A DNA stretch of 64,000 nt from NCBI GenBank assembly GCA_903901975.1, contig CAIUTB010000129.1, positions 49,605 to 113,604 of the forward strand, given 5' to 3'. Source of the stretch: an uncultured Bacteroidales bacterium (GTDB lineage: Bacteria; Bacteroidota; Bacteroidia; Bacteroidales; Paludibacteraceae). Shown here piece by piece: positions 8,551-58,249 of this stretch; the stretch's first letter is position 1; the number at the start of each line of letters is the position of its first letter. The translations under genes were made by a program, and so were the position numbers. The notes below the pieces were generated by a model. That model saw only the letters and a program-made list of their open reading frames with translations. It made no database searches and was not told where the DNA came from.

Positions 8551-8561
8551 TGGGGTCTGTA

Positions 8562-13266: not shown

Positions 13267-13277
13267 CGTTAACAATC

Positions 13278-13488: not shown

Positions 13489-13612
13489 TACATATTTATA
13501 CCAAGCAAAGCAATAAGACTAAAAATAATCTATAATTTTGCATTTCTATTTTTTATCTTATTACTTTTGTTTGACTTTAAGTCATTCATACCTTAAAAAA
13601 ACAACTAATTGC

Positions 13613-20874: not shown

Positions 20875-23343
20875 ATGACATTCAACTATAAGCTTTTCTT
20901 CCTTATCGGTATTATTTTAAATACAACTGTTTTTGCCCAAAAAGCCGAAACTGATTATGCCTTTGCCAATTATCAGCGTTATTATGCCGATGGTCAAAAA
21001 GTGAAAGATGCCACAAAGGAAAAATCCATTCTGGAATACCGTGAATCTTTTTCTAAAAATGGTTACCGTCAACACGAGATGTCAAAATGCAAAATCAGTG
21101 CTTCAGAATGTGTGAATCAACTCACGCCGGAAGGACAATTTGCCGATTTGATTGAACTTGAAACCAGGATTTACAACGAAAAACTATTGTTTGAAAAATT
21201 CAATGGAACCGACAATATCGTTGCAAATTTCTTGGTGGAAGCACACAACCGGATTTGGAAAATTGCTGTAGACATCAGAAAGGGCAAATTCAGTGAATAT
21301 GACCCAAAATACGCGGCTTTTCTGAAAGCAATCCTGCATTATGGTGCTATTGAAATAGGTCGACCCAATACCATTCCCCGGTTTCATGCATCCTGTTTTG
21401 CCATCCCGACAGCTGCGGTAAACACTTATTTCTGTTTGTTGAAAAAAATGGACGATGTGGAGGCCGGTAAAATCAAAGACGAGCAACTTATTGGGGTATG
21501 CGACATGCTCAAAACACTTGCTTTACAAGCATGGACACAACCATTACGAAAAGACGAAACGGATAAAAATGTGGTACAAATTGAACGATTCAGAAACCAT
21601 GTGTGGTGGGTTGGAGGCAATGCTTTGGCATATCGCTCATTACTTCCGGTAGCTTTTATGTATAAATCCATCCCAATGATTGATCTGATTGCCGATGTGA
21701 GTCAGAAATGCATCAGTACTACTTCGCAAAATACCTTTAGTACTGCTTTCTGGACAGAAGGTTTTACGACCGATGGTGCCGGTTGGGGGCACGGGAAACA
21801 AAGTTTGGTATGGGGATATCCTATCGATGGCACTTCCAATGCCTTGTCGATGCTTAATGATTTGAAAGGATCGCCCTGGACTAAAAAACTGTCACGGGAA
21901 AATGTGAATGCCCTTTTTAATTTCTTTCAGGGTGCTAACTGGTATTATTTCAAAGGATTTACCCTGCCCGGACTTGACCGGCACAACTTTTTATTTGAAA
22001 ATGAAAGCAAAACCATTCGTTACTTGGGTATGCTGAACACATTGTTAAACGATTGGAAAGATTCATTTACTCCAACTGAACTGGCCGAATTGAAACAACT
22101 TGCACAGGAAGGTAATAAGAAAAATATCAATATGAATTCTTTGAACGATGGAGTTTACACCGGCACACGCTGGTTTTTCAACAATGATGATTTGATAAAA
22201 AAGAATGACAAATATCACGTCATAGTCAACATGTCTTCAGTGCGTTGCGATGGATTGGAAAGCGCACTCAATGTGGCTGACGAATACAACTTTTTTACCG
22301 ACGATGGCATGACACTGTTTCAACGAAATGGTCAGGAATACCGTTCGGTATTTGGTGCGTGGGATGTGACGGCTGCCCCCGGTGTGACAGCCCGCGAAGG
22401 CATGGAAAAAATAAAACCGGTAACCAATTGGCGGGGTTATTGCAGCAGGTTTAACTTTGCAGGAGCAGCTACCAAAGGCGAAAATGCAGTGGCCGGGTTT
22501 ATATTTGAAAAAATGAATGCCTCAGAAAAAGAAGGCGTCAACGATAAATCCGGAACAGCCCAATCCAATCCGACGCTTTACGGTGTAAAGGCACACAAAT
22601 CCTATTTTATACTTGGAGATTATTTTATAGCATTGGGAGCAGGAATTACGAATAAGCAACCTGAAATGCCCGGAACCATACGCACCACCATTGACCAGAC
22701 CGCAAAAACAGAAGCTGTTGAAATAATCAATAACGGCGTGTTAATGCCGGTGACAGAAGGAATTCATGATTTTATGAAAAACGGAAAACCGGTTTGGGTG
22801 ATACAGAAAAATAAATTTGCCTATACTGTTTTACCCGAATACAGCAGGAATGCCTACTTTGTGTTGGAATCAAAAAAAACAAACTGGGTAAAAATGAACA
22901 AAGAAAACAGAAAAATAAATAACCTGCCCGAAAATGCGGATATCCTTCGACTTTGGATGGATCACGGTCAAAAGCCAACCAATGAAACCTACGGATATGT
23001 GGTTTATGCCGGAAATAAAACTCCCAAAGACGAGTTACCATTCCTGGTTTTGCGAAACGACACGCTCATACAGGCCATTCGTTCCACGGATTCTAAATTA
23101 ACGGAAGTTGTTTTTTATCAAGCCGATACAGCTTTAGTCAGTCCTGAAATAAAACTTAGTGCTTCGGCGCCCTGTGTGGTTTTGATTGATAATACAGGAA
23201 AAGAAAAAACAATCACAGTGAACGATCCCCGAATGGAGAAAACGCTGAAAACGATACAACTGAATCTGAACGGAAAAATCATTTCTGTAGAATTACCTCA
23301 GGGAGAATTGTGTGGAAAACCAGTAACCATCAAAATAGATTAA
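20875..23343 (+). CDS. Divergent polysaccharide lyase family 8-like protein
   Basis: HVWWVGGNALAYR, TTDGAGWGHGKQSLVWGYPIDGT, VNMSSVRCDGLESAL, DYFIALGAGITN, LWMDHGQKPTNETYGYVVY; PL8-like order of N, H/Y, R/E motifs. Confidence 0.8.
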   Translation: MTFNYKLFFLIGIILNTTVFAQKAETDYAFANYQRYYADGQKVKDATKEKSILEYRESFSKNGYRQHEMSKCKISASECVNQLTPEGQFADLIELETRIYNEKLLFEKFNGTDNIVANFLVEAHNRIWKIAVDIRKGKFSEYDPKYAAFLKAILHYGAIEIGRPNTIPRFHASCFAIPTAAVNTYFCLLKKMDDVEAGKIKDEQLIGVCDMLKTLALQAWTQPLRKDETDKNVVQIERFRNHVWWVGGNALAYRSLLPVAFMYKSIPMIDLIADVSQKCISTTSQNTFSTAFWTEGFTTDGAGWGHGKQSLVWGYPIDGTSNALSMLNDLKGSPWTKKLSRENVNALFNFFQGANWYYFKGFTLPGLDRHNFLFENESKTIRYLGMLNTLLNDWKDSFTPTELAELKQLAQEGNKKNINMNSLNDGVYTGTRWFFNNDDLIKKNDKYHVIVNMSSVRCDGLESALNVADEYNFFTDDGMTLFQRNGQEYRSVFGAWDVTAAPGVTAREGMEKIKPVTNWRGYCSRFNFAGAATKGENAVAGFIFEKMNASEKEGVNDKSGTAQSNPTLYGVKAHKSYFILGDYFIALGAGITNKQPEMPGTIRTTIDQTAKTEAVEIINNGVLMPVTEGIHDFMKNGKPVWVIQKNKFAYTVLPEYSRNAYFVLESKKTNWVKMNKENRKINNLPENADILRLWMDHGQKPTNETYGYVVYAGNKTPKDELPFLVLRNDTLIQAIRSTDSKLTEVVFYQADTALVSPEIKLSASAPCVVLIDNTGKEKTITVNDPRMEKTLKTIQLNLNGKIISVELPQGELCGKPVTIKID

Positions 23344-23347
23344 AAAC

Positions 23348-24718
23348 ATGAAACGAAATTCAATTGCAACGCTTTTAATTCTCTACCTGGCATTCAATTT
23401 AATGGCACAGGAAACTCCTTCGAAAGAATATCAGGCACGATATCAGGAAGTGATGAAACAAACGCAGTGGTGGCGCGAAGCACGCTTCGGAATGTTTATC
23501 CACTTTGGAGCCTATGCTGTTCCGGGCAGAGGCGAATGGGTGAAATCGAACGAACGGCTCACAACCGAACAATACCAAAAATACGTGGATGCCTTTAATC
23601 CTGCCGATTTTGATGCTAAAAAATGGGCCAAAGTTGCCAAAGCCGCAGGGATGAAATATGCAGTACTCACAGCCAAACACCACGATGGATTTTGTTTGTT
23701 CGACAGTAAACTTACTGATTATAAATTGAGCAAACAATTTGGCGGACGTGACCTGGTGCGTGAGTTTCTGGATGCTTTCCGTGCCGAAGGACTGAAAGTA
23801 GGCTTGTACTATTCTATTATCGACTGGCATCACCCCGATTATCCAAATGTGGGAAATCACCCGCAACGGGATGACAAAGAATATGCAAAACGTAACTTCA
23901 ATTGGGATAGTTACCTGAAATACATGCACGGACAAGTGGAAGAGTTGACCAAAAATTACGGAAAACTCGACATTATGTGGTTCGATTATTCTTTTGGCGA
24001 ATATTCAGGTGAAAAATGGAAAGCCAACGAACTGGTCAAAATGATTCGCACAAATCAACCCGGCATTATTCTAGACAACCGCCTTAAAGTAAACGAAGGA
24101 GTTAGTCTTAAACAACGTGAAATAGGGACTCTGGGTGATTTTGAAACACCCGAACAAGGTATTCCTGAAGCTCCTTTAATGGATAAATACAACAATCCCA
24201 TTCCCTGGGAAACCTGTATGACCATGAATGGTGTTTGGGGCTACAGCGAATCCGATCATAACTGGAAATCACCTGAATTGTTGATTCACTGCTTAGTAAA
24301 TTGCGTCAGCAAAAACGGAAATATATTGCTGAATGTAGGTCCTGATCCACGCGGAAATTTTCCGGCAGAATGCGTGAATATTCTTGCCGAAGTGGGTAAA
24401 TGGATCGATAAGAATGGTGAAAGTATCTACGGTTGCGGCGCCAACTCACTGAAACGCCAAGACTGGGGACGTTACACTCAAAAAGGAAATCTGATTTATG
24501 CACACTGGTTGTACCCTTATTTGGGCGATTTGAATGCAAAAGGAATAGATGCAAAAGAAGTTAAGAATGTATTTATGCTCAACTCGGGAGCAGAACTGGT
24601 AACATACAAAACCTGGTTTGGAAACAATGAGACTGACAATCTATTTATAAAGGTAAGTAAATCGCCTCAAAAATCCGATTTACTGGATACGGTTATTAAA
24701 ATTGAAATGAATAAATAA
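23348..24718 (+). CDS. GH29 alpha-L-fucosidase (second)
   Basis: ARFGMFIHFGAYAVPGRGEW, YAVLTAKHHDGFCLFDS, KLDIMWFDYSFGE, NGNILLNVGPDPRG. Confidence 0.95.
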   Translation: MKRNSIATLLILYLAFNLMAQETPSKEYQARYQEVMKQTQWWREARFGMFIHFGAYAVPGRGEWVKSNERLTTEQYQKYVDAFNPADFDAKKWAKVAKAAGMKYAVLTAKHHDGFCLFDSKLTDYKLSKQFGGRDLVREFLDAFRAEGLKVGLYYSIIDWHHPDYPNVGNHPQRDDKEYAKRNFNWDSYLKYMHGQVEELTKNYGKLDIMWFDYSFGEYSGEKWKANELVKMIRTNQPGIILDNRLKVNEGVSLKQREIGTLGDFETPEQGIPEAPLMDKYNNPIPWETCMTMNGVWGYSESDHNWKSPELLIHCLVNCVSKNGNILLNVGPDPRGNFPAECVNILAEVGKWIDKNGESIYGCGANSLKRQDWGRYTQKGNLIYAHWLYPYLGDLNAKGIDAKEVKNVFMLNSGAELVTYKTWFGNNETDNLFIKVSKSPQKSDLLDTVIKIEMNK

Positions 24719-26754
24719 TGAAAACAAAACTTTTTAAATCACTTTTGGTTGCAATTGCTTTGTGTGGGTTAACAACACATGCAAATCCCTCCGACTTTTC
24801 GGTTATTTACAACAGAATGTACAACGATTATTTGACCAATCCATCCAAAAGCAGTGTGGAATCTTTGCTTCAAAAGATGGACGATCAGGGCAGGTTTGAA
24901 GGAATTAATTATTCGGCTACTGATGGATCGCCCCGCAAGCATGTACAAAATTTGATAAGTCTCGCTGCAGCTTATCAAAATTCCGAGAATAGTTTTTATC
25001 GCGACAATGACCTGAAAAAAGCCTATTTATTGTCGTTGAAATACTGGATTGAAACTAACAATCAGGCTACCAACTGGTGGTACCGATACATTCCTTATCC
25101 AAAAGAACTTTCCAAAAGTATAATTTTGATGGCTCTGGAAATAAAGAAGGACAAAGTGCTTTTCGATAAAACCATAAAATACCTGCGTTGGAGTTATGAA
25201 AATTCTGTAAGCGAAAGATTAACCGGAGCAAATGGTGCGGATATAATTATTGGATCACTTACTGCCAGCATTTTAACTGAGAACGACAGTCAGATGATGG
25301 ATTTTAAAAATAAGATGACCGAATTGCTTAGCATACAATCGGTTGAAGGAATTCAGCCCGATTACCTGTTTGCCCAACACTGTGGAAAAGGCCGGCAATT
25401 ATATTTTACAAATTATGGAAAAGAATTTGTAAACTCCATGATGTATTACCTCGAGTATTGCAACGGCACAAAATACCAGTCACCGGGCGTCGATTTATTA
25501 CAGGATTTGTTCATCAACGGCGTACAATGGATCTTTTACAACAAAAACTACGACCCCAATAATTCGGGTCGATATAACAGTTCTGATCAGTATTTCAATC
25601 AAATAAAAGGCCTATCCGACCGAATACAAAAACTTAATGGTAGCAAAAAAGCGGAGATTAAAAAAGCGTGTAACAGAATTGCAGCGGGCGAAAACAGTTT
25701 GACCGGCAACCGGATGTTCTGGCGATTCGATTACATGATCAACCGCCGTACCAATTACATGGTTAGTACCCGTATGTCGTCCACCCGAACAGTAGGTAGC
25801 GAAGCCGGAAATGGAGATGGTGAATATAATTTCTATTCTGGAAACGGCACAAACTACTTGTTTGTAATAGGAAACGAATACAATCGTGACTATTTTAAGA
25901 AGTTCAACAACCGCCAATTTCCAGGTATCACTGCAGAACAAGACGATGCGAAACTTCCCATTCCTAATTGGGGTGAAAATGCATCAAATAGCAATTCGTA
26001 TGCGGGAGGCGTAAGCGATAGCACCTATGGAGCTTGTGGGATGATTTTACAACGAAGAGGTATTACAGCTCATAAATCATGGTTTTATTTCGATGAAGAA
26101 TTTGTATGTTTGGGTGCCGGAATCAATCAAACGGATGGGAAAGCTTCGGTTTATACAACTGTCAATCAATGTAATATCAACGGTAAAGTGCAATATTCCG
26201 TAAAAGAGAAGATGGATATTTTAAAGGACAATGCAAAAATAAAATTACCGGACTGGATATTGCATGGAAAAGTTGGCTATTTTAACCTGGAACCTTCCTC
26301 CGCTTTTGTACTGGTACGGGATACCAATCTATTCAGTTTGAACATTGACCATGGAATAAATCCAACAGAAGGTGCGTATGCATACGTTGTAAAACCGGGT
26401 GTAGAGACTGTAGCTGAAGCCATAAAATACAGTAAAAATACTCCTGTGAAAATTTTGATGAACAGTCGTGAGGCACATGCAGTACGACATGCGCAGCTAA
26501 ATCTGACAGAAATTGTATTTTTTCAACCCGCTAAGTTAAGTTTTGATAATGGAAAAACCATCGAAGTAGATGCACCCTGTGCCTTGCTTTGGAAAGAAAA
26601 AACCGGCGAAATAACGCTTGCCAATCCCTTGTGTGAAACAAAAAATCCTGATGTGATTCATCTTAAAGTTCAGATTAACGGAAAATCAGCAGAACTGTCT
26701 TTTCAAATGCCAACCGGAGTAAAAGCGGGTAGTAGCATAACTATGAAATTGTAA
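24718..26754 (+). CDS. PL8 polysaccharide lyase (chondroitin AC/hyaluronate lyase-like), no T9SS domain
   Basis: TNWWYRYIPYPKELSKSIILMAL, TGANGADII, GIQPDYLFAQHCGKGRQLYFTNYGKEF, STRMSSTRTVGSEAGNGDGEYNFYSGNGTNYL, FAGGVSD-like AGGVSDSTYGACGM. Confidence 0.93.
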   Translation: MKTKLFKSLLVAIALCGLTTHANPSDFSVIYNRMYNDYLTNPSKSSVESLLQKMDDQGRFEGINYSATDGSPRKHVQNLISLAAAYQNSENSFYRDNDLKKAYLLSLKYWIETNNQATNWWYRYIPYPKELSKSIILMALEIKKDKVLFDKTIKYLRWSYENSVSERLTGANGADIIIGSLTASILTENDSQMMDFKNKMTELLSIQSVEGIQPDYLFAQHCGKGRQLYFTNYGKEFVNSMMYYLEYCNGTKYQSPGVDLLQDLFINGVQWIFYNKNYDPNNSGRYNSSDQYFNQIKGLSDRIQKLNGSKKAEIKKACNRIAAGENSLTGNRMFWRFDYMINRRTNYMVSTRMSSTRTVGSEAGNGDGEYNFYSGNGTNYLFVIGNEYNRDYFKKFNNRQFPGITAEQDDAKLPIPNWGENASNSNSYAGGVSDSTYGACGMILQRRGITAHKSWFYFDEEFVCLGAGINQTDGKASVYTTVNQCNINGKVQYSVKEKMDILKDNAKIKLPDWILHGKVGYFNLEPSSAFVLVRDTNLFSLNIDHGINPTEGAYAYVVKPGVETVAEAIKYSKNTPVKILMNSREAHAVRHAQLNLTEIVFFQPAKLSFDNGKTIEVDAPCALLWKEKTGEITLANPLCETKNPDVIHLKVQINGKSAELSFQMPTGVKAGSSITMKL

Positions 26755-26774
26755 TTTGGTAAAAAAAATTAAAT

Positions 26775-29195
26775 ATGAAACGGTTTTTTCAATTCATTTC
26801 AATTTCAATTCTAACATCTTTGTTTGTAAGTCTGCATGCACAAACAGCTACTGATTACAACACACTTTATTCACGAATTTATAGTACAAGCTTTGGTAGC
26901 GGATTGAGCAGTTATAACCTAAGTAATCAAAATGCAGATGGAACTTTTTTGAATGTTAACACCTATCCTACAACGCAACCCACGCCCAATACCGGTGCGC
27001 CACGCGAACATTTGGATGAAATGCTAAAAATTGCCAAAGTGTACCAAACCACAGGTTCAAACTATCATAGTACTACTTATCTGAATGCGTATTTAAAAGC
27101 ATGGAACTGGTGGATGAATTTTGACCCGCAAGATACAAACTGGTGGTGGCGCTCCATTGGCTGGCCCAAAAGTTTGTATCCGTCATTTGTGCTTATGGGT
27201 AGAGATTTAAAAACCAAAAATCCAACCGATTATGCCAATATGTTGAAGTATTTTAGAAATGAATGGACCACTACCAACATCGCAACCTACACCAATACTC
27301 CCACCGGAGCAAACACTACCGATGTGTGTAATTACATTATGGCAAGTGCCATTGTTGACCAAGATGCAATTACTATTAATCAGGTGGCATCCATTATAAC
27401 CAATGCATTAGCAGTTGTTACCGGTGCTTTAGCCGAAGGCGTTCAGCCCGATTATGGATTTTCGCAACACACCGGTTATGGTCGGCAGATTTATATGGGA
27501 AATTATGGGAAAGAATATACCAATGGAATAGTCGGTTTTCTGACATTAACGGCTGGAACCTTTTTCCAGTTTCCGGATGATAAAGTGGCTGTACTCGAAA
27601 ACCTCTTCCTGAATGGTGTAAGCTGGAGTTGCTATCGGAATATTTTTGATCAAAATCAAAATGGAAGATACCCCGAAGCTGATCCTTACAGCACACTTAC
27701 GTCACAATTATCGAAAATTTTAAGTGCCAATACCGCACAAAAACCAGCATTACAGAATTTATACAACTGGATGACCCGTAGTGCCTCAACGAATGCTCTC
27801 AATGTCCAAACCGGAAATCAAATGTTCTGGAGACATGATTTTATGGTTCAAAAAGGAAAAGATTATATGGTCAGTACCCGTATGACTTCTACCCGAACTG
27901 TGGGATGCGAGAGTGGAAACGGATCAGGACTTACCAACTATTATACCGGATCGGGCGTGAATTATTTGTACGTTAGCGGAACTGAACGCTACGAAACGCT
28001 GACCGATCAGAACTGGCGGAGATTGCCCGGAATTACTTCTCCCCAAAAACCGCCAACAACTGCTTTGCCATTAGTAGATTGGGGGTTAAATAGTCCCAAT
28101 TTGGATGCATTTGCAGGAGGTGTATCCGATGGGAAAACTGGTGCATGTGGATTTATTTACTCTAAAAGTCAAACCGAAATTAAGCTGAAAGCATACAAAT
28201 CGTATTTTTATTTTTCTGATTATTTTGTGGCACTTGGTAGCGGTATTACAGCAGGTACAAATTATCTTGTTCCTTATAGCACCACGGTAAATCAGGTAAA
28301 ATACAACGGATCTTTTGTGGTAGATAATGAAGGCGTTGCCACCACAATGTCGGCTGTGCAAAGTTTGAAACCGATAAGTTCTGATTGGGCATTTATCAAT
28401 AATGTGGGCTATCATTTTGCTATTAATACTGAATTGAATTACGAAACGGCCACGCTGGGAAATACGCCAATTGCCTGGATTGGGTTGAATCATGGCAATT
28501 TACCTTCGGGTGAACAATATGCTTATGCTGTATTTCCTAATGTCACTCAAACCATATTACAAGCAAAAGTGGCCAATCCACCTTACACCGTTTTTTCAAA
28601 TACCACGAGCTTTCAGGCGGTTTTGGACAAAAATAGTAACACGGCACAAATTATATTTTACAAAGCCGGAAAAGTCACCTTGCCCAACGGTTTAGGTACT
28701 TGTCAAGTGAATTATCCGGCGGTCATTCAGCTTCGCTGGACAACAGACTCCGTTTTTATTTCGGCTGCCAATCCGTATTGTGAAACAACACCGTTGAATT
28801 TGCTGACAGTGACCATATCCGGTACTTTTTGCAATGCCACGTCCGTAAGCGGTTTGGACACCATTGTCAATATCGGAATGCCACAAAATGAATATCAGGG
28901 AAAATCGATTACAACCGGCATCAGGAAACTTACTACCGGTCTGCCCAAAAACCAGACAACCAACATCAGTATTTATCCCAATCAGGTAAAAGTTGGGACT
29001 TCTGTAAATATCCTATTACCAGCAATTACCGATTCAAATGAAAGTTTTAAAATTTATACTTCAACAGGGAAATTGGTTCAAGAGCTTTTGCCCCCTACAA
29101 ATGTCACCCTGTTTTCAATTAATACAACGAACTTAAATTCAGGCTTTTACATGCTGAAATATAAATCATTTACAGGGAAGTTGGTGGTGAATTAA
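26775..29195 (+). CDS. PL8 polysaccharide lyase with T9SS-like C-terminal sorting domain
   Basis: NWWWRSIGWPKSL, TGANTTDV, GVQPDYGFSQHTGYGRQIYMGNYGKEY, STRMTSTRTVGCESGNGSG; C-term ISIYPNQVKVGTSVNI...FKIYTSTGKLVQE...LNSGFYMLKYKSFTGKLVVN. Confidence 0.93.
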   Translation: MKRFFQFISISILTSLFVSLHAQTATDYNTLYSRIYSTSFGSGLSSYNLSNQNADGTFLNVNTYPTTQPTPNTGAPREHLDEMLKIAKVYQTTGSNYHSTTYLNAYLKAWNWWMNFDPQDTNWWWRSIGWPKSLYPSFVLMGRDLKTKNPTDYANMLKYFRNEWTTTNIATYTNTPTGANTTDVCNYIMASAIVDQDAITINQVASIITNALAVVTGALAEGVQPDYGFSQHTGYGRQIYMGNYGKEYTNGIVGFLTLTAGTFFQFPDDKVAVLENLFLNGVSWSCYRNIFDQNQNGRYPEADPYSTLTSQLSKILSANTAQKPALQNLYNWMTRSASTNALNVQTGNQMFWRHDFMVQKGKDYMVSTRMTSTRTVGCESGNGSGLTNYYTGSGVNYLYVSGTERYETLTDQNWRRLPGITSPQKPPTTALPLVDWGLNSPNLDAFAGGVSDGKTGACGFIYSKSQTEIKLKAYKSYFYFSDYFVALGSGITAGTNYLVPYSTTVNQVKYNGSFVVDNEGVATTMSAVQSLKPISSDWAFINNVGYHFAINTELNYETATLGNTPIAWIGLNHGNLPSGEQYAYAVFPNVTQTILQAKVANPPYTVFSNTTSFQAVLDKNSNTAQIIFYKAGKVTLPNGLGTCQVNYPAVIQLRWTTDSVFISAANPYCETTPLNLLTVTISGTFCNATSVSGLDTIVNIGMPQNEYQGKSITTGIRKLTTGLPKNQTTNISIYPNQVKVGTSVNILLPAITDSNESFKIYTSTGKLVQELLPPTNVTLFSINTTNLNSGFYMLKYKSFTGKLVVN

Positions 29196-29283
29196 ACTAA
29201 ATTTGAAAATTTGAAAATGAAAGATAGCTTATAAATAATAACCAATTAAAAAGTTCCCCTTCGGGGGATATAGGGGGCTTACA

Positions 29284-29595
29284 ATGATCAGAAAATTCAA
29301 CATCATCACCCTTTGTGGAAGTACCAAATTCAAAGACGAATTTTTGGCGGCTCAGAAACGGCTGTCGCTCGAAGGAAATATTGTAATCAGTGTAGGATTG
29401 TTTGGTCATTCCGGCGATACTGAAGTGTGGACTGAAAGTACCAAAGAGATGCTGGACGAAATGCATTTACGTAAAATTGATTTGGCCGACGAAATTTTCG
29501 TGATAAATGTTGGGGGTTATATCGGTTCTTCCACCCGCAATGAAATTGAATATGCATTGAAAACCAAAAAAATAGTTAAATACATGGAACAATAA
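29284..29595 (+). CDS. Nucleoside 2-deoxyribosyltransferase-like small protein
   Basis: IITLCGSTKFKDEF...KIDLADEIFVINVGGYIGSSTRNEIEYALKTKKIVKYME. Confidence 0.75.
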   Translation: MIRKFNIITLCGSTKFKDEFLAAQKRLSLEGNIVISVGLFGHSGDTEVWTESTKEMLDEMHLRKIDLADEIFVINVGGYIGSSTRNEIEYALKTKKIVKYMEQ

Positions 29596-29700
29596 TCTCA
29601 TTTTTTTATATCCCCAAATATAAGGTATTGTATTGTTTGTAAATATTCAATAGCTTATTGTGACTTATGAAAAGTTACTATTTATAAAAAATACAATTCA

Positions 29701-32403
29701 ATGAAACGATTTTCAATTCTTTTTTTAGCTTTCTTTACATTTATTTCCTTATCGTCTGCATATCAGCCAAAATTCTCTAGTTCCGGATTTTATCCACTCG
29801 CAGGCACCGGACGCACTGCTTATTCCATGAATGTGGGGTGGCGGTTTGTCAAAACTGATATCAAAAATGCCGAATTAGTAAATTTTGACGACAGCAAATG
29901 GGAATTAGTTTCGCTCCCACACGGACTAGAATACCTACCAAAGGATGCAAGCGGGAGTATCAATTATCAGGGACCTGCCTGGTATCGCAAACATTTTACA
30001 CTGGATGCTGCATTGAAAGGCAAAAAGCTTTTTCTGCATTTTGAGGGTATTATGGGCAAGTGCAAAGTGTGGGTAAATGGAAAACTCCTAACTGAACATG
30101 TTGGTGGGTATTTGCCCGTTATTGCTGATATTTCAAATAACCTGAAATGGGGCGAAGAAAATGTGATAGCCGTTCGTGCTGACAATAGTGATGATCCAAG
30201 CTATGCACCGGGAAAGGCACAGAATGTGTTGGACTTTTGTTATTTTGGGGGTATTTATCGCGATTGCTGGTTAATTGCAACAAACAACGTACACATTACC
30301 GACCCCAATTATGAAAACGAAGTGGCTGGTGGCGGACTATTTGTTTCGTACGATAAGGTTTCGGATAAAAGCGCTCTGGTGAATCTGAAAACGCATATTC
30401 GTAATGAATTGTCCACGGATTTTGCCGCTGAACTTATCTACGAATTAAAACAAACTGATGGCAAAATAGTGAACAGAATTGCTCAAAAATTAAATATAAC
30501 TAGCGGAAAAGCAGCTTATTCAATGAAAGGTTTTGAGCTTAAACAACCCAAACTCTGGAGTCCGGAATCTCCGTATTTGTATTGGCTGAATGTGTATGTA
30601 AAAGATAAAAAAGGGAATATTGTTGATGGTTATAGCACCAGAATAGGTATCAGGAGTATTGAATTTAAACAAAAGTCAGGTCTTTGGATTAATGGAAAAC
30701 CTTATGAAAAAATAATGGGCACCAATCGTCATCAGGACTTTGCTGTCATTGGAAATGCACTTCCCAATTCAATCCAATGGCGCGATGCAAAAAAACTTCG
30801 TGATGCCGGAATGAAAGTAATTCGAACCCATTATGTTATCGATCCCGCTTTTATGGATGCTTGTGATGAACTTGGAATTTTTGCATTGGTTGAAACTCCG
30901 GGCTGGCAGTTTTGGGGTGAAACGCCAATATTTGCCCAAAGTGTATATTCCGACATCCGAAATATGATACGGATTCACCGTAATCATGCTTCACTTTTCT
31001 TTTGGGAACCGATTCTGAATGAGACTTCTTATCCGAAAGATTTTGCCAAAAATGCTGCCGAAATATGCAAGCAGGAATATCCTTATCCATACAGTATTGC
31101 GGCTTGTGATGATGGAGCTGATGGCGCCCAATTCTTCTCATTATTACTGAGACCAGGGAATAAACTCGATTCAACAAAAACCTACTTTGTGCGCGAATGG
31201 GGTGATAATGTGGATGATTGGAGCGCTCAGAATTCGGATAGTCGTGTAAATCGCAACTGGGGAGAAGTTCCTATGCTTATTCAGGCACTTCATTATGGCA
31301 AACCGGGTGTAGTAAACGAAAAATGGCCACTTCCTTTTGTGGCGAATGTTGATGCTAATCAAACCAAACCAACATTTAATGGTATATGCTTACAAAATTT
31401 ATATACCTCACCGCGTCAAATTATCGGAGGATGTTTTTGGCACTCTTTCGACCATCAGCGCGGATATCATCCCGATCCGCAGTTTGCCGGAATTATGGAT
31501 GCATTTCGTCAACCCAAGACTTCGTATTATATGTTTATGTCGCAGCGCAGTCCGGTAAAATCCGATCTTCTGTCCGAAACGGGTCCTATGCTATATATTG
31601 CTAATGAAATGTCACCGTTTTCGCCCAATGATGTAACTGTTTATTCCAATTGCGATGAAGTGCGGCTTACATTTTTGAAAAACGGCAAACAGGAATCGTA
31701 TAGGAAAGATCCTAACCGCAAAGGGATGCCATCGCCTATAATTACGTTTAAGAATATGTTCGACTTTATGGCTTGTAAAGCCAGGGCAAGAGCAAGTAAA
31801 CAAGATGAAGTTTATTTATTGGCTGAGGGATTGATAGACGGAAAAGTAGTGGCAACAAACAAAGTTTGTCCGGCTGAAAGTCCAAATCATATCCGGCTGC
31901 GCTTGGATAATGATGGCGTTGAATTATTGGCCAATGGATCGGATATTGTAACGGTCATTGCCGAGATGGTAGATAAAAAAGGAACAGTGAAACGATTGAA
32001 TAGTAACAGCATACGGTTTAACATTGAAGGCGAAGGGCGTTTGCTTGGCGATGAAAGTATTCTGACCAATACAAGTGAATTAATATGGGGCACAGCACCG
32101 GTTTTGGTACAATCGACTACTAAAGCAGGAAAAATCAGGATTACCGCATCGCTTGTTCACGAAGGTTCGCAAACGCCTGTTGGAGGCGAATTGATTTTCA
32201 ATTCGTTGGAAGATAGCACACCGAGCATATTCTATCAAAAAGAAGTAGATTTGATTGTAAAACATAAGGAACAAACTGTCAGAAAAGGGTCAAATAAATC
32301 AGAACTGGAACTTGAAAATGAAAAACTCCGTAAAGAACTGAATGATATTAAAATTAAAGAAGTGGAAAAACAGCAAAATAAATTTGGAACGGGAATAAAT
32401 TAA
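29701..32403 (+). CDS. GH2 family beta-glycosidase
   Basis: Sugar-binding domain WYRKHFTLDAALKGKKLFLHFEGIMGKCKVWVNGK; NRHQDFAVIGNALPNSIQWRDAKKLRDAGMKVIRTHY; candidate catalytic Glu in WEPILNET and FVREWGD. Confidence 0.9.
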   Translation: MKRFSILFLAFFTFISLSSAYQPKFSSSGFYPLAGTGRTAYSMNVGWRFVKTDIKNAELVNFDDSKWELVSLPHGLEYLPKDASGSINYQGPAWYRKHFTLDAALKGKKLFLHFEGIMGKCKVWVNGKLLTEHVGGYLPVIADISNNLKWGEENVIAVRADNSDDPSYAPGKAQNVLDFCYFGGIYRDCWLIATNNVHITDPNYENEVAGGGLFVSYDKVSDKSALVNLKTHIRNELSTDFAAELIYELKQTDGKIVNRIAQKLNITSGKAAYSMKGFELKQPKLWSPESPYLYWLNVYVKDKKGNIVDGYSTRIGIRSIEFKQKSGLWINGKPYEKIMGTNRHQDFAVIGNALPNSIQWRDAKKLRDAGMKVIRTHYVIDPAFMDACDELGIFALVETPGWQFWGETPIFAQSVYSDIRNMIRIHRNHASLFFWEPILNETSYPKDFAKNAAEICKQEYPYPYSIAACDDGADGAQFFSLLLRPGNKLDSTKTYFVREWGDNVDDWSAQNSDSRVNRNWGEVPMLIQALHYGKPGVVNEKWPLPFVANVDANQTKPTFNGICLQNLYTSPRQIIGGCFWHSFDHQRGYHPDPQFAGIMDAFRQPKTSYYMFMSQRSPVKSDLLSETGPMLYIANEMSPFSPNDVTVYSNCDEVRLTFLKNGKQESYRKDPNRKGMPSPIITFKNMFDFMACKARARASKQDEVYLLAEGLIDGKVVATNKVCPAESPNHIRLRLDNDGVELLANGSDIVTVIAEMVDKKGTVKRLNSNSIRFNIEGEGRLLGDESILTNTSELIWGTAPVLVQSTTKAGKIRITASLVHEGSQTPVGGELIFNSLEDSTPSIFYQKEVDLIVKHKEQTVRKGSNKSELELENEKLRKELNDIKIKEVEKQQNKFGTGIN

Positions 32404-32410
32404 TTGAAAT

Positions 32411-33544
32411 ATGAAAAAAAATCTTGTAATTATTTGTTTAATAACATTTTCAATCTCGTTGACTGCCAAAGATAAACTGCCGGCAAAAACTGAAATTACT
32501 ACCGCCTTGTGCCGCGTTTGTGACTGGCAATTGGCCAATCTTAAAAAAACGGAATATATTGATAATGATTCAATTAAGCACAAAAACAGAAATACCAACT
32601 GGATACGGGGTACATTTCTGACCGGAATAATGGCTTTGTATAACAGCACTCACGATTCAAAATACCTTGATGCGGCAATGGCACTTTGCTCGCGCAATAA
32701 CTGGAAACTCGGACCCAATTTTCAGTTTGCCGACGATTTATGTATTGGTCAGACCTACATCGAATTGTATAAGCTGAAAAAGGATATCAATATGATAAGT
32801 GATGTAAAATTCAGGTTAAACATGATTTTGAAAGAACCTAAAAGAGGACCAGTTGTGGGCTGGAATCGTAACGACAACTGGGATTGGTGTGATGCACTTT
32901 ACATGGCTCCACCGCTGTTTTCGCATTATTTTAAATTGACCAATAACAAAGCCTATCTGGATACAATGGTCGTGCTTTGGAATGATACCTACAATTTGCT
33001 TTACGACAAAAAAGAACAATTGTTTTACCGCGATTCCCGCTTTTCGGAAAGATCAGATGGTACTCAGAAACTCAGTAAAAACGGGAAAAAAATATTTTGG
33101 TCGCGTGGTAATGGTTGGGTACTCGGCGGTTTGACTCGTTTGTTGCAGGATTTACCCAAAAAGGATCCTAACCGTGCCAAATTTGAAAGCGTTTTTAAAG
33201 AAATGTGTTCAAAAGTTGCCAATCTACAGGGAGAAGACGGATTATGGCGTTCGAGTTTACTTGACCCGGATGAATACCCAGCTCCCGAAACTTCAGGGTC
33301 GGGCTTTTATTGTTATGCCATGGCTTATGGTATCAATAATGGCTTACTTTCATCTAAAATATACCTTCCAGTAATACTTAAAGCATGGAAAGGCCTGAAC
33401 TGGGCGATTGATAAAAATACCGGAATGCTGGGTTGGGTGCAGGCGGTTGGTGCCGATCCACGATCAGTAACCGCTACCGAATCGCAGGAATATGGTGCAG
33501 GTGCTTTTTTGCTCGCAGGAAGCGAAATTTTCAAAATAAAATAA
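32411..33544 (+). CDS. GH105 (GH88-clan) unsaturated uronyl hydrolase
   Basis: TNWIRGTFLTGIMALYNST, WDWCDALYMAPPLFSHYFKLT, FWSRGNGWVLGGLTRLL, PETSGSGFYCYAMAYGIN. Confidence 0.92.
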   Translation: MKKNLVIICLITFSISLTAKDKLPAKTEITTALCRVCDWQLANLKKTEYIDNDSIKHKNRNTNWIRGTFLTGIMALYNSTHDSKYLDAAMALCSRNNWKLGPNFQFADDLCIGQTYIELYKLKKDINMISDVKFRLNMILKEPKRGPVVGWNRNDNWDWCDALYMAPPLFSHYFKLTNNKAYLDTMVVLWNDTYNLLYDKKEQLFYRDSRFSERSDGTQKLSKNGKKIFWSRGNGWVLGGLTRLLQDLPKKDPNRAKFESVFKEMCSKVANLQGEDGLWRSSLLDPDEYPAPETSGSGFYCYAMAYGINNGLLSSKIYLPVILKAWKGLNWAIDKNTGMLGWVQAVGADPRSVTATESQEYGAGAFLLAGSEIFKIK

Positions 33545-33563
33545 ATAAAGTATTTCCATCTCT

Positions 33564-33628
33564 GTATAATTTAGGGCGAAAAACGCATTATTTTGTGTGG
33601 TGTTAAGTGCTTCCTCAATCTATCTTTG
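33564..33628 (+). promoter_or_regulatory. Candidate promoter with upstream activator motif (gtataatttaggg ... tatctttg)
   Basis: Motif start to -7 start is 57 bp, the same as at 37129 and 42584. Confidence 0.5.
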
Positions 33629-33656
33629 TCAGTGAATTTTATATCAAGGTTAAATT

Positions 33657-35237
33657 ATGAACAAACTCAACATTACTATCGCACTTTTTATGCTTTTAAA
33701 TCTCAGCATTTCATCTCAAACCAATCAGTCGTCTGCTTTCGAAGCATTTAAGAAAAATCCGTCCATTTCCATTTTGCCCGACTATTCATGGGCAGGTTAT
33801 AAAATGGGTGCTGAGGGTATTCCCGAAGTGAAAGGAAAGATCTTTGATGTTTCGAAATACGGTGCTTTACCTAACGATACGCTTGAAGATTTTGAAGGGA
33901 TTCAAAAAGCTATTAAAGCAGCAGAGGCAGCCGGTGGGGGTATTGTTTTCTTCCCTAAAGGCCGTTTTTTAATCAACGAGAAAGAAGGTCGCCGTGATGG
34001 AATTGTTATTTCAAAACCCAATATAATACTTCGTGGAAGTGGCTCAGGAACTGACGGTACCGAGATTTTTATGAAAAACTATATGTTACCGAAAGATCCC
34101 GATAAAAAATGGACTGTTCCGGCTATGTTTACGTTCAATTATTATAAAAGTTCATCTGCCAAAAGTGTTATCCTTGACAATGCCAAACGTGGTGCAATGA
34201 AAATAGTGCTTGAAGATGCTTCTGGCTTTAAAGTTGGCGACTATGTTTCGATGAAAATGCAAAATCCGGCTGCAAATAAAGAGTTTTTAGACAATATGGA
34301 TACCTGGAATATATGGAAAACTACCAACGAAAAAGGCGTACAAATCAGCGAAAAACATAAAATCGCCAAAATTGAGGAGAATGTAATCACTTTTTGCGAA
34401 CCGCTTTGTACCAATATCACTGCATCTTACAACTGGAAAGTGGAAGGATTAAACCTGGCCGAAGGATTAGGCGTGGAAGACATATGGTTTCAGGGTAATT
34501 TCCATGAAATTATTGTGCACCACAAAAACTTTATTCACGATGCTGGTTGGACATTCCTTAGCATAGGGCGAGCCACCAATGCTTTTATTCGTCGAATTAG
34601 GTTGACTGACGTCTGTGCAGGTATTTCAATTGGAAATGGATATGCTTGTACCATGATAAATATTCGTTTCGATGGAAATCCGGGGCATTGTACAGTTAAT
34701 GCAACCAATAGTTATGGTGTATTGATGGTCAATGTAACAGATGCAAGCAACGCGCCCGGTATGTGGCACGGTCCATGCAGCTCCAACAGCAGTTGCAATA
34801 CCGTGATTTGGCGATACGAAGGACAAGCACGCAGCGGTCCCGATTTTCATGCTTCGTGGCCTTATTGTACGCTGGTGGATGCTTCTAGCTGTAAATACAT
34901 TGGCAATGGTGGAAATTACGAATTGCTTCCCAATCACATGAAAGACCTGACTTATTGGAATATGAAACAAATAGGGAAATTTGAAAAAGTAGATTTTTGG
35001 GAACCGCAGTTGTACGAAAACAGCAACAACGAACAAAATAAATTCTACGGCAAATTTGTGAAAATTGTAAAACCTAATATTATTGGTATGTATGGCGATT
35101 CCATTTCGTTTGTAAGAGAGCATTTGGGACTTTACGAAAGCCCCGGAAAGCCGGTAACTCCCCAATCGCTTTACGAAGCCCAGTTGGAATTACGTTTGGG
35201 TAAACTGCCAAAATGGATAGTTGACGCTAAGAAATAA
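33657..35237 (+). CDS. Pectate_lyase_3-type beta-helix protein (DUF4955-like C-terminal region)
   Basis: FDVSKYGALPNDTLEDFEGIQKAIKAAEAAGGGIVFFPKGRFLIN; GLGVEDIWFQGNFHEIIVHHKN; signal peptide. Confidence 0.8.
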   Translation: MNKLNITIALFMLLNLSISSQTNQSSAFEAFKKNPSISILPDYSWAGYKMGAEGIPEVKGKIFDVSKYGALPNDTLEDFEGIQKAIKAAEAAGGGIVFFPKGRFLINEKEGRRDGIVISKPNIILRGSGSGTDGTEIFMKNYMLPKDPDKKWTVPAMFTFNYYKSSSAKSVILDNAKRGAMKIVLEDASGFKVGDYVSMKMQNPAANKEFLDNMDTWNIWKTTNEKGVQISEKHKIAKIEENVITFCEPLCTNITASYNWKVEGLNLAEGLGVEDIWFQGNFHEIIVHHKNFIHDAGWTFLSIGRATNAFIRRIRLTDVCAGISIGNGYACTMINIRFDGNPGHCTVNATNSYGVLMVNVTDASNAPGMWHGPCSSNSSCNTVIWRYEGQARSGPDFHASWPYCTLVDASSCKYIGNGGNYELLPNHMKDLTYWNMKQIGKFEKVDFWEPQLYENSNNEQNKFYGKFVKIVKPNIIGMYGDSISFVREHLGLYESPGKPVTPQSLYEAQLELRLGKLPKWIVDAKK

Positions 35238-35244
35238 ATCAATC

Positions 35245-37101
35245 GTGAAAACAAAAATCTTACTTCTTTCATTGGTATTGATGATTTGTGGATACACAAA
35301 ATCTCAAACCGAAGCAGCCTGTTATACAGCTTTTAAAACCAATCCCGCAACTTCTGTTTTGCCTGATTATTCATACTCAGGGTATAAATTTGGTACAGAT
35401 TCTATTCCAAATATCAGTTTGCCGGTTTTTGATGTCAGTAAATACGGAGCCATTCCGGATGATGCACTTGAAGATTTTGACGGAGTCCAAGCCGCCATAA
35501 ATGCAGCTACCGCAGCCGGTGGTGGCATTGTGTTTTTTCCAAAGGGCAAATTTTTGATGAACGAGCAAGTGGGCAGAACAGCCGGAATCCTTATACCCAA
35601 AGGAAATATCATTTTACGTGGCAGTGGAAGTGGGGTAGGAGGAACCGAATTGTTTATTAACAACCATTTCGTTCCTACCGATACAACCTGTATGTATTGT
35701 ACTCCACCCTTGTTTAAGTTTTACTATTATCAAAGTCATCCTGTTAAAACCCAACTTGCTCTGGATGCCAAACGTGGTGATAGACAAATAACTGTTGTCA
35801 GTATTTCCACCTTTAAAGTGGGCGATCTGATTGAAATTGTGTTGAGTAATAATCCTACTGCGAATAACGAACTGTTAGAAGGATTGACACCCTATCCCGA
35901 ATGGACCACTACCATCAATAACGGAATAACCATTAATGAAAAGCACAAAATTGCCGGTATCAACGGCAATGTGATTTCACTTGTAGAGCCTGTTAATATT
36001 AATATGACGGCTTCATACTCATGGAGTGTAACTCCAAGACCATTAACTCAGGGTTTAGGGGTGGAAGATCTTTGGTTTCACGGTAATTTCCATGAAACTT
36101 TCGTTCATCACAAGAATTACATTCACGATTCCGGTTGGTCAGGTATTTCGATGAATAAAGCAGAAAATGGCTTTTTAAGACGCTTACGTTTTACGGATAT
36201 GAGTTGCGGAATTGCATTAACAGAAAGTTATGCATCTTCCATTCTGTTTATTCGTTTCGACGGTAATCCCGGGCATTTTATGGTGGAGGCAAATGGTGGA
36301 AGTTACGGAACTTTAATGGGTTACATAGACGATGCCGCCAATTCTCCCGGAGAGTGGCATGGACCAGGACCTTCTGTTACCACCTCTGCTACAGTTCTTT
36401 GGCGCTATCGGGGTGGTACACGCAGCGGTCCCGATAGCCACGCTTCTTATCCATATTATACCCTGATTGATGCTAGTAACTGTAAATATATCGGAAACGG
36501 GGGCGATGCGCTGGTTTGTCCGAATCATGGAAAAGACTTTACCTACTGGAATACGAAGGAGATTGGCACATATTCCAATATTGCTTTCTGGGAAAACCAT
36601 TTGAAACCTCCTTACGGAAATTTTGTAAAAATAGTATATCCCAATGTGGTGGGCTGGCAGGGTAAAAGTACCTTTGTAACCTCAACTTTAGGACTTTACG
36701 AAAGCTATGGAACTACTGTATCACCCGAATCACTTTACGAAGCTCAGTTGACATTGAGGTTAGGATCTTTACCTGCCTGGATACCATCGGCGAAAAAAGT
36801 ATGGGCAGACTATCTGCTGAGTGGTCAGTGGCCAGTAAATCCTTTTATTACCGGAATAAGCACGCTGAACGATAATAATGAGATAAAAATTACAGTATTA
36901 CCGAATTCGGATGGATTTACACTTTCAGGCAATCGGTTGAATGCACGTTATGAAATTTTTACAATTACCGGTAACCTCATAAAATCAGGAGTAATGGAAG
37001 GGTATACCCAACATATTTCATTAACAGGGTGTAAACACGGCGTATATTTTGTGTCAATACAGGCGGATACTGATATTACAACTAAAAAAGTGCTATATTA
37101 A
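35245..37101 (+). CDS. Paralogous Pectate_lyase_3-type beta-helix protein with T9SS-like C-terminal domain
   Basis: FDVSKYGAIPDDALEDFDGVQAAINAATAAGGGIVFFPKGKFLMN; C-term RYEIFTITGNLIKSG...GCKHGVYFVSIQADTDITTKKVLY. GTG start at 35245 gives a normal signal peptide; the track start is TTG 35221. Confidence 0.8.
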   Translation: MKTKILLLSLVLMICGYTKSQTEAACYTAFKTNPATSVLPDYSYSGYKFGTDSIPNISLPVFDVSKYGAIPDDALEDFDGVQAAINAATAAGGGIVFFPKGKFLMNEQVGRTAGILIPKGNIILRGSGSGVGGTELFINNHFVPTDTTCMYCTPPLFKFYYYQSHPVKTQLALDAKRGDRQITVVSISTFKVGDLIEIVLSNNPTANNELLEGLTPYPEWTTTINNGITINEKHKIAGINGNVISLVEPVNINMTASYSWSVTPRPLTQGLGVEDLWFHGNFHETFVHHKNYIHDSGWSGISMNKAENGFLRRLRFTDMSCGIALTESYASSILFIRFDGNPGHFMVEANGGSYGTLMGYIDDAANSPGEWHGPGPSVTTSATVLWRYRGGTRSGPDSHASYPYYTLIDASNCKYIGNGGDALVCPNHGKDFTYWNTKEIGTYSNIAFWENHLKPPYGNFVKIVYPNVVGWQGKSTFVTSTLGLYESYGTTVSPESLYEAQLTLRLGSLPAWIPSAKKVWADYLLSGQWPVNPFITGISTLNDNNEIKITVLPNSDGFTLSGNRLNARYEIFTITGNLIKSGVMEGYTQHISLTGCKHGVYFVSIQADTDITTKKVLY

Positions 37102-37193: not shown

Positions 37194-37256
37194 CACCCTA
37201 CAAATCCATCTACTTCTTAGATGAGTAGAGTTTTAATACATTCAAATTTGAATATC

Positions 37257-40200
37257 ATGAAAAAAATTACAATGTTGATTGCATTTTTATGTAGCATTTC
37301 AGCGTTTTCGGCAACAACTTATTTGGTAGATAACGGTTCGGGTACAGTATGGACTACTCTTACAGGACCGGGTGGTACAGTAACTCACGTCAATTTGTCT
37401 TCTCCTGCTCAAACTTTAACTGCATGGTTGACAGCAACAACATTCGCTTCTGGTGATCAGGTCTGGATTACAAAAGGCACCTATAATGTAACTTCTGCTT
37501 ATACCATTCCTAATTCAAACCTGACTGCTATTTATGGCGGTTTTGCTGGAACTGAAACAAACACTACCCGAATAAAAGGCACAAATGCCTGGGATTATAC
37601 TAATGAAACTGTGATTGACGGAGGTTCTGCTGCAATCAATTTATTTACCGAAGCAGCCGACAGAACAATTACAATTGATGGATTAACTGTGACTCATTTT
37701 GGAGGGATAAATCCAGTTTCATACAGAGGTGGAACAATTGTACAGTATTGTAAATTTACAAATAATACAGTAACGGGACCTATTATAAACTATTATACTA
37801 GTACAGCGTCGATGAATGCATCCTTAATAAGTTGTTATTTTTACAACAATGCAATAGCCAGCGGAGCCACAACAGTAAATGCAGCTTGTATTTATTCAAA
37901 TAATGGAAGTTCAGGTGGAATTTTTACTGTAAGTGGTTGTACTTTTGAAAGTAATGTAAATGCTTATTCAACTACATCTGGTGCAAGTGCATGTGTAAAA
38001 GTACAAGGAGCAGGGACAAATAACATTAGTTCTTGCATTTTTAAAAACAACACTAGTACTGCTGGTAACTCTTCTGCCGTTTCGTTAGTAAGTACCACCT
38101 CTAACCTTATAAATTGTTTAGTTTATGGTGCTCCTTCTGGTTCTAAATCTGCACTTTACATCTCATCTGGCAATGTCTATAACTGTACATTTGTAAACAA
38201 TCTTGGAGGCGGAGCTTATGTTTCAAATACAACTGCAGCTAATGTAAAATTGACAAATACTGTTTTTTGGGGAACTGATGGAAGTGCTTCGTCCGGTTCA
38301 GGGTACATATCCACCAGCAGCTCAACAGCTGCAACAATAACCAATTGTGCTTATAATAATATTCAAACAGCACAAACTCCTTTACCAGTAGGAACTGTAT
38401 CTCTTACAACCAGTAGTATTCCTTTTAATAATTATTCTGGTGGAGATTATTCATTATCTGGAAATTCTACATTGATTGGAGCAGGTTCTGATTTATCTTC
38501 GAGTGGAATATCTGGAATAACTTCAGATATTGCAGGAAATTCACGAGGAACCTCGTATGCTATTGGTGCATATCAATGGGCATCAAGTTCAGTTGTTGTG
38601 ACTAATGCAGGATTTGAAGATGCTGCAAGTGGATATACAGTTTCAGAAAGTAGTTTAAATGTATTGCGTCGGGTTGCAGGTATAGCTGATGGAACTACTC
38701 AAATAGCCAGTCCCACATCAAGTGCAATATCAGTTACTCCCGGCATGTGGTTAAAAAAAGCACCAAGTACAAACTATATTTCAGGAGTAATTTCAAATTA
38801 CGATCCTCATTCGGGAACAAATTGTTTAAACCTAAAAATTAAGAATGGAACCCCTAATACAGGTTACGACACATGGACAAATGCTATTGCCTTGCAAAAA
38901 TTAAGTTTTACCAATACACAAAAATATACAGTCAGTTTTTGGGCAAAAATAGATCCAACTGCTTCGAATGTAGCTTCTGTTGTTACTGCATTTATAAGGG
39001 ACAATGTAACGGGAACGAACCTTTCGTGTGCTATCCCTTTGACCGGAGGTACCACCTGGACACAGTATTCGGCTACTTTCGATATTCCTACTTTTAAAGC
39101 AGCCAATGTCACAGCTGATTTTACAACCGCTTTTGCAGGTATTGGGTTAACCACTACTTACGATGCCAGCACCATAAAAACCAATTATTCCGGCGTGTTG
39201 TTGGATGATTTTTCCGTTACTACAACTGCTGCAAGCACGGTAGCTGTTAACACTTCTGCTGTTGGAACAGGTTGTGTTGTTACAGGTGGAGGCGTTTATA
39301 CCGTTGGCAGCAGTGCCAACGTGGTTGCCTCACCCAATAATGGCTATAAATTTGTGAACTGGACCGAGGGTGGAACAGAAGTTACTACAACTGCTTCATA
39401 TACTTTTACGGTGTCAGCGGCTCGCACGTTGGTGGCCAATTTTGTATCTACCAATACTACTTGTACCGTTTCACCCACCACATTAAGCGGTTTTAGCTAT
39501 ACAAACGGAAATGGTCCTTCATCTGAACAGTCTTTTACAGTTAGTGGAACGAATTTATTATCAAATATTGCTATAAGTTCATCTACTAATTGCCAGATTT
39601 CAACTGGAACTGGAGCATCGTTTGTTTCTACAAATCCAATTTTATTGACAAATAGCGGAACTCTTGCCACTACTACTATTTATATTCGGTTGAAAGCCGG
39701 ATTAGCTGCCGGTACAATTGCCAGCGAAAACACCACAATTTCAACCTTGTCTTTGGCAGTACAAAATGTGGCGAGTTCAGGTTCTGTTTCATCAAATCCA
39801 GTCCTTACTTTTGCCACACCGACTTCTGTGAGTAAAACCTATGGGAATGCAGTGTTTACAAATGCAGCTTCTAGTACTGCTGGTTCGGCTGGTGCTGTAA
39901 CTTATGCAAGTGGTAATACTGCTGTGGCGACAGTTGATGTCAACTCCGGTCAGGTATCGATAGTGGGAGCTGGGTCATCGGTTATTACAGCTAGCATTGC
40001 TGCTAATGGAATTTATGGTGCTGCAAATGCAAGTTATACCTTAAATGTTGCTCAAAAATCCCTGACCATTACCGCCACCGGTCCTTTAAAAACCTACGGT
40101 ACAGCACTGACAGCAGGAACAAGTGCAACGAACTTTACAACGAATGGTGCTGAGGTTTCAGGAGAAACCATTAGCATAGTTACATTAACTCCAGATGCAG

Positions 40201-55730: not shown

Positions 55731-55753
55731 AAACCAATAAAAGAAATAGAAGG

Positions 55754-57169: not shown

Positions 57170-58249
57170 ATGTTAAACATCATTCAACAATTTACGATAA
57201 AAAATGAAGTGGGTGAAATTCGCCCGTTAAAAATTGGTCACATCAACGATTCATTTATAGTTGAAAGTAAAAATCCCGGTGGAGAATCCTATTTTCTGCA
57301 AAAAATAAACCATCACATTTTCAAAAATGTGGAAGGTCTGCAGCAAAATATACAAATTGTAACCGACCACTTGCGTGCAAAACTTATCGAAACGGGTGCA
57401 AGTGATATAGACAAAAGAGTACTTCAACTGATTCCTACAAAAGATGGGAAACTGTTTTATCAGGGTGCCGAGGGTGCATTTTGGCGGGTATATGTAAATA
57501 TTGAGGGGACTCACAGCTACGATGCAATCACCCCCGAACTAGCCTATAAAGCAGGAGAAGCTTTTGGAAATTTTCAGTATATGCTGGCCGATATTCCTCA
57601 CGATGAGCTCATTGAAACCATTCCCAACTTTCACAACATAGAATTCCGTCTGGAGCAATTCAGAGATGCTGTAAAAGCTAATGCTGCAGGACGTTTGGAA
57701 ATGACTCAGTGGTTGGTGGATGAAATTGAAAGCCGTGCAGAAGAAATGTGTATGCCTGAACGTCTTTTTCGGGAGGGAAAACTTCCCAAACGCATCAATC
57801 ATTGCGATACAAAGGTAAACAATATGCTTTTTGACGTAAATAATGAGCCTATTTGTATTGTCGATCTGGATACGGTGATGCCTGGTTTTGTGCTTTCCGA
57901 TTTTGGCGATTTTATGCGCACAGCAGCCAATACCGGTGCAGAAGATGATGTAAATCTGGACAATATCGGAGTGAACCTTGATATTTTTGAAGCCTATACA
58001 CGTGGTTATCTGAAAAAAGCTACTTTCCTTACTCCGGTGGAACTTGGTAATCTGGCTTTTGGAGCTAAGTTATTAAGCTATATGCAAACAGTTCGTTTTT
58101 TTGGAGATTATATAAATGGCGATACATATTACAAAATTGAACATCAACATCATAACTGGCAGCGGTCGCTTGCACAATTCAAACTGTTGCAAAGTCAGGA
58201 AGAGCATTTCGAAACCATGCAGCAAATAGTCTTCGACTGCAAAAAATAA
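57170..58249 (+). CDS. Phosphotransferase family sugar kinase, N-acetylhexosamine 1-kinase (NahK)-like
   Basis: [47 protein letters not shown] (APH-type catalytic region). Confidence 0.82.

Follow-up and report, generated by a model that had tools for sequence, protein, structure and literature searches.

Gene content of the locus

The window, a 64,000-nucleotide stretch from the genome of an uncultured Bacteroidales bacterium (3.97 Mb, 98.6% complete, 170 contigs), contains a polysaccharide utilization locus, with adjacent SusC and SusD genes, carbohydrate-active enzymes and a sensor. The host is described as freshwater, and the closest named relatives in the genome collection are MAGs from lakes, assigned to uncultured Bacteroidales. 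All locus genes from the sensor to nagB lie on the forward strand. The first encodes a hybrid two-component sensor (HTCS), the locus regulator (13538..17683; Reg_prop, HATPase_c, Response_reg and HTH_18). It is followed by a GH29-like alpha-L-fucosidase (17799..19316; PF01120, 229 bits), a sulfatase (19313..20854; PF00884, 163 bits), a PL8-type lyase that we count as the third of its kind (20875..23343; PF02278 and PF02884), and a second GH29-like alpha-L-fucosidase (23348..24718; PF01120, 327 bits). All four are untagged, i.e., they lack a C-terminal type IX secretion system (T9SS) sorting tail, as do homologues of the third PL8 at 58-60% identity.

Two lyase pairs come next. The untagged PL8 lyase PL8u (24718..26754; chondroitinase-AC family, 288 bits; 1hm2, E 1e-66) lies beside the tagged PL8t (26775..29195; chondroitinase-AC family, 211 bits), a predicted T9SS substrate. 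An untagged GH2 family enzyme (29701..32403; PF00703, PF02836 and PF02837) and an untagged GH88 unsaturated glucuronyl hydrolase without a lipobox (32411..33544; PF07470, 286 bits) separate this pair from the untagged PL29-like lyase PL29u (33657..35237; NF058554, 315 bits, E 8e-94; DUF4955) and its tagged neighbor PL29t (35245..37101; NF058554, 272 bits), also a predicted T9SS substrate. PL29t has a GTG start at 35245, and its reading frame could instead open at a TTG at 35221.

Downstream are three beta-helix-type proteins with T9SS tails, namely a 1649-aa protein that also carries CBM_4_9 (28.4 bits; 37221..42170) and two choice-of-anchor Q proteins (42697..44322 and 44407..46350). These are followed by a SusC-like TonB-dependent transporter (46528..49671; TIGR04056, 926 bits), a SusD-like lipoprotein (49705..51471; PF07980, 133 bits), a DUF5017 lipoprotein that is likely a surface glycan-binding protein (51546..52547; PF16409), a chondroitinase-ABC-type PL8 with a T9SS tail (52563..55730; Lyase_N, Lyase_catalyt and Lyase_8), and a second GH88-like hydrolase, a predicted lipoprotein (55727..56953; PF07470, 48.6 bits; lipobox TSSC). 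The two GH88-type hydrolases, one without a lipobox and the other a predicted lipoprotein, are only distantly related within their family. The series ends with an APH-family kinase (57170..58249; PF01636, 60 bits), which gene context suggests is probably an N-acetylhexosamine kinase, and the glucosamine-6-phosphate deaminase NagB (58269..59054; TIGR00502, 428 bits). Directly 3' of these two genes, a NagB-like domain is fused to a PIG-L deacetylase domain (59124-61112).

The locus thus encodes four PL8-type lyases, two GH29 enzymes and one sulfatase. Taken together, the lyases, the GH88 enzymes and the hexosamine catabolism genes point to a glycosaminoglycan of the hyaluronan/chondroitin type as the putative substrate, and fucosylated chondroitin sulfate is a candidate in view of the two fucosidases. 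A tRNA-Asn gene (13193-13267) lies just upstream of the locus; just beyond it, a tRNA-Lys gene (61330-61403, minus strand) adjoins a tyrosine recombinase gene (61541-62779). We considered whether the locus is a mobile island and rejected the idea, as neither tRNA gene has an att-like repeat.

Sorting tails on one copy of each pair

The T9SS and its C-terminal sorting tail are well established. The initial annotation had described the four paired reading frames and reported that in each pair the longer copy alone has a T9SS-like tail, and all four coordinates and C-termini were borne out. It had overlooked the untagged PL8 at 20875-23343, the tagged chondroitinase-ABC-type PL8 and the three tagged beta-helix-type proteins. 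The TIGR04183 (Por_Secre_tail) profile matched only the longer copies, at 24.7 bits for PL8t (residues 733-805, 28971..29189) and 24.8 bits for PL29t (residues 553-617, 36901..37095), both just above the cut-off of 23 bits; the same search gave no match to PL8u or PL29u. With PF18962, whose gathering threshold is 27, the PL8t tail scored 27.3 bits and the PL29t tail 26.3 bits, 0.7 bit short. By sequence, both tails are therefore ordinary, rather weak members of the TIGR04183/PF18962 family.

We also built a C-terminal domain (CTD) HMM from 20 further tails encoded by the host genome. It matched the C termini of PL8t and PL29t with E values of 2e-8 to 3e-8 and gave no matches to the short copies or to the exo-acting enzymes of the locus, including the fucosidase at 17799..19316. 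The chondroitinase-ABC-type PL8 was matched as well (E 9e-9; PF18962 24.1 bits, below gathering; TIGR04183 17.6 bits, below the cut-off), as were the 1649-aa protein (TIGR04183, 29.2 bits) and both choice-of-anchor Q proteins, the first of which has a weak tail (TIGR04183 16.0 bits, below the cut-off; own-genome HMM E 1.7e-5) and the second a tail scoring 24.6 bits with TIGR04183. We asked whether a tail had been captured from a neighbor in the same locus and rejected this, since no close match was present there.

Type A sorting domains are C-terminal units of ~70 residues with an Ig-like beta-sandwich fold. An AlphaFold model of PL29t, made from a shallow alignment, is poor outside the tail, which it builds as eight beta strands (pLDDT about 61-86). 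Top Foldseek matches of this low-confidence tail model in the PDB include 8glk_D (the NucA tail bound to the T9SS), RgpB (7pq4 and 5ag8) and mirolase (8qb1), each at a probability of 1.00 with E values of only 0.009-0.07. For the lyase cores, the shallow input alignments yielded only poor models (mean pLDDT 41).

The secretion machinery itself is encoded in the host genome, where profile searches found SprA (2782 bits), PorU (1172 bits) and GldM (411 bits), along with at least 150 type A tails.

Untagged copies and their predicted export

PL8u and PL29u are not truncated genes. No tail remnant was present downstream of either, and the next start codon follows about 20 bases after the PL8u stop and about 8 bases after the PL29u stop. 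A hydrophobic N-terminus that lacks a lipobox motif is common to both, to their orthologues in L110, L106 and L107, and to the untagged copies of two further PL8 pairs described below (genomes G663 and G667). In this they differ from the SusD-like protein, the DUF5017 protein and the second GH88, all of which have one. Because their N-termini are hydrophobic and lack a lipobox, PL8u and PL29u are predicted to be soluble periplasmic proteins.

The untagged copies might instead leave the cell by another route, such as vesicles or a signal of unknown type, with the tail setting only anchoring or processing. Some enzymes predicted or previously described as periplasmic were indeed present in extracellular fractions of soil Bacteroidetes (PMC6247017). 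However, both the lipobox and the sorting tail are absent from every untagged copy, and we consider an extracellular location for both members very unlikely.

Separately, another T9SS-positive genome (G379) carries two PL29 copies (L013 and L024), one with a plain signal peptide and the other with a lipoprotein-type N-terminus; by these predicted N-termini, the pair would be another route to a compartment split.

Histories of the two pairs

The initial annotation had attributed both pairs to duplication, and the two turned out to have different histories. PL29u and PL29t are adjacent and 53% identical. Their NF058554 scores fall far below the equivalog cut-off of 1100 bits and the match is restricted to the C-terminal part of the model (positions ~300-840); by sequence, they are homologues of BT3328-type PL29 rather than equivalogs, and neither has an N-terminal spacer. 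Two related genomes (L005 and L006, the latter being the same contig as L106) carry both forms, the untagged orthologues being 83-84% identical to PL29u and the tagged ones 60-82% identical to PL29t. In a tree of core alignment columns, the untagged copies from three species (n = 3; support 99/98) and the tagged copies (n = 4; 100/99) formed sister clades (joint clade 100/100), so that duplication holds for this pair as a pair of true sisters. With the exception of one distant row (L127), the remaining PL29 sequences in the tree carry no tail, so the simplest reading is that the PL29t lineage acquired it. L006 also encodes a second tagged PL29 (7938-9791) whose tail is degenerate (14 bits; AVC in place of GVY) and may represent a decaying sorting signal.

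Both PL8 copies belong to the family by domain content (PF02278/PF08124/PF02884) and by the catalytic His/Tyr/Arg/Asn residues, and each retains the residues aligned to the chondroitinase AC active site (His, Tyr, Arg, Glu and Asn). One member of the pair being a dead paralog was thus rejected. They are only 33% identical to each other. A genome of the same order and another family (G002) carries an adjacent PL8 pair in the same gene order, with an untagged orthologue 62% identical to PL8u and a tagged orthologue 67% identical to PL8t (TIGR04183, 35.9 bits); its neighbors include an untagged PL29, an HTCS (71% identical) and an APH kinase (81% identical). In the PL8 tree, the untagged copies of the window and of this genome (support 100) grouped beside a clade of seven tagged PL8t rows as its sister (100; joint 98), a relation that was unchanged when long branches were removed (100).

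The PL8 pair thus reflects an old divergence shared with a genome of another family; we rejected a recent local duplication, given the 33% identity within the pair and the 62-67% identical orthologues in that family. Since G002 keeps the same tag assignment, the PL8 split was maintained while each member diverged by about one-third. Judging from these comparisons, the pair has been adjacent and split since before the two families diverged or exchanged the locus. Among distant PL8-like relatives of the protein at 52563-55730 in L005/L006, some carry a tail (1126 aa) and others do not (1062-1066 aa).

Recurrence of split pairs and selection on tails

We found two further PL8 sister pairs in which both members lie in one locus and only one carries a TIGR04183 match. 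In G663, a 721-aa untagged copy and an 813-aa tagged copy (27.2 bits) are 65% identical; in G667, a 704-aa untagged copy and a 1015-aa tagged copy (25.1 bits) are 62% identical. By sequence relationship, these pairs split independently of the pair in the window.

Recurrence bears on whether the paralogs are specialized by substrate (sulfation pattern, chain length, or fucosylated versus plain chains), with the tail a by-product of lineage. At 33% identity, PL8u and PL8t could well differ in specificity, and a locus with the enzyme complement noted above (four PL8-type lyases, two GH29 and one sulfatase) offers room for it. Against this, four sister pairs show the split independently; in two of them, at 62-65% identity, specificities should differ less, and the adjacent PL29 copies are 53% identical. 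We regard specialization by substrate as the explanation of the splits as rather unlikely.

A second question is whether redundant paralogs simply gain and lose the sorting domain by chance, leaving splits without functional meaning. Within sampled stretches of the host genome and its relatives, we counted same-locus paralog pairs and found 39 with both copies tagged, 30 split and 29 untagged. About 30 of 69 pairs (split versus both tagged) are thus split, although in at least two of the split calls (L148, 1618 aa; L157, 713 aa) a tail seems to have been missed. The split is therefore not unique to the window, and because splits are common among tandem paralogs in this sample, a split by itself is no proof of selection for two compartments. 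Turnover by chance would also be consistent with the degenerate tail in L006 and with the PL8 trees, on which tag state switches at least 7 to 9 times. A further split CAZyme pair, a GH30 tandem in the host genome (L159, 11632-14827), combines a predicted lipoprotein with a copy bearing a strong T9SS tail.

Three observations run counter to chance turnover. The tag assignment is kept in the PL8 orthologues of another family at 62-67% identity and, for PL29, in three species. The tails themselves look to be under purifying selection, evolving faster than the cores yet retained: between the window and its L106/L006 orthologues, tails are 54-66% identical and cores 83-85%, and tail dN/dS is about 0.13-0.17 in those of the closest comparisons that allow an estimate, where dS is near saturation. 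Finally, all four independent lyase sister pairs are split, compared with 23 of 61 other pairs (38 with both copies tagged), which gives a one-sided Fisher P of about 0.03 in a post hoc test, worked by hand, on four lyase pairs only; the excess of splits among lyase pairs is accordingly weak. Tails can also decay or drift, as indicated by the degenerate L006 tail and by a dN/dS of about 0.5 in the more distant PL29 comparison (L005). On balance, we think it improbable that chance turnover accounts for the splits.

A two-compartment reading of the locus

That polysaccharide utilization loci act in order, with surface enzymes first and periplasmic enzymes afterwards, is established. The reading that we favor, with a probability of roughly 0.7, is a two-compartment glycosaminoglycan locus in which tagged lyases act outside the cell and untagged lyases in the periplasm, the PL29 pair having arisen by duplication with gain of a tail and the PL8 pair being older. 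Under this reading, the tagged PL29, PL8 and chondroitinase-ABC-type lyases and the beta-helix-type proteins would cross the outer membrane by the T9SS and be processed by PorU, and the polymer would be cut outside the cell. SusC/SusD would then bring oligosaccharides in. Cleavage would continue in the periplasm through the untagged PL29 and PL8, which would depend on Sec alone for export and on signal peptidase I for release, and the GH88, sulfatase, GH29 and GH2 enzymes would complete the breakdown there. For PL29, duplication would have come first and addition of the tail to one copy second. The tagged and untagged twins would thus probably provide the same activity on both sides of the outer membrane. 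The initial annotation had proposed such a division of labor; the T9SS, the profile support for the tails and the N-termini all fit it, and we infer the compartments, the substrate and the action of both members on the same polymer.

The chondroitin sulfate/dermatan sulfate/hyaluronan locus of Bacteroides thetaiotaomicron (BT3324-BT3350) offers a close comparison. There, the surface enzyme is the PL29 BT3328, with an N-terminal spacer of about 300 aa, and the PL8s BT3324 and BT3350 are periplasmic (PMC6994673). Both loci contain PL29, PL8, GH88, sulfatases, HTCS and SusC/D and have in common the order of a surface lyase followed by periplasmic lyases (PMC6994673). The window differs in having a tagged and an untagged copy per family, a PL29 without a spacer, and the T9SS as the surface route. 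In two f59 genomes (G059 and G258), in which a search for SprA found none, the PL29s are long, with an N-terminal extension and partly lipobox-like N-termini, in agreement with the surface BT3328 with its spacer and the periplasmic PL8s of B. thetaiotaomicron (PMC6994673).

Splits similar to those in the window have been published. In the chitin locus of Flavobacterium johnsoniae, ChiA is secreted by the T9SS and ChiB is a predicted surface lipoprotein (PMC5127042). As in the window, two members of one family (GH18) share a locus and the T9SS serves only one of them; ChiA, however, is multimodular with two GH18 domains, and ChiA and ChiB are not tandem single-domain sisters (PMC5127042). A literature search of incomplete coverage did not turn up any tandem sister lyases divided by a T9SS tail. 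The form, side-by-side sister lyases with a tail on one copy, may thus be new; the tail and the T9SS themselves are known.

The PL29 comparison suggests that one fold may be served by two surface routes, an N-terminal-spacer lipoprotein in genomes without a T9SS and a C-terminal tail here. A broader and tentative proposal, which we consider possible but short of even odds, is that Bacteroidota have repeatedly, and under selection, obtained matched outside and periplasmic versions of an enzyme when one lyase of a tandem sister pair gained or lost the tail, and that they keep such pairs for long evolutionary periods. If this is true, the state of the tail could be used as a sequence signature of the compartment in which each cleavage step takes place. 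Such lyases would also be natural matched pairs that have a fold and a locus in common and differ by the sorting tail, and the contribution of T9SS export to polysaccharide use would therefore be directly testable.
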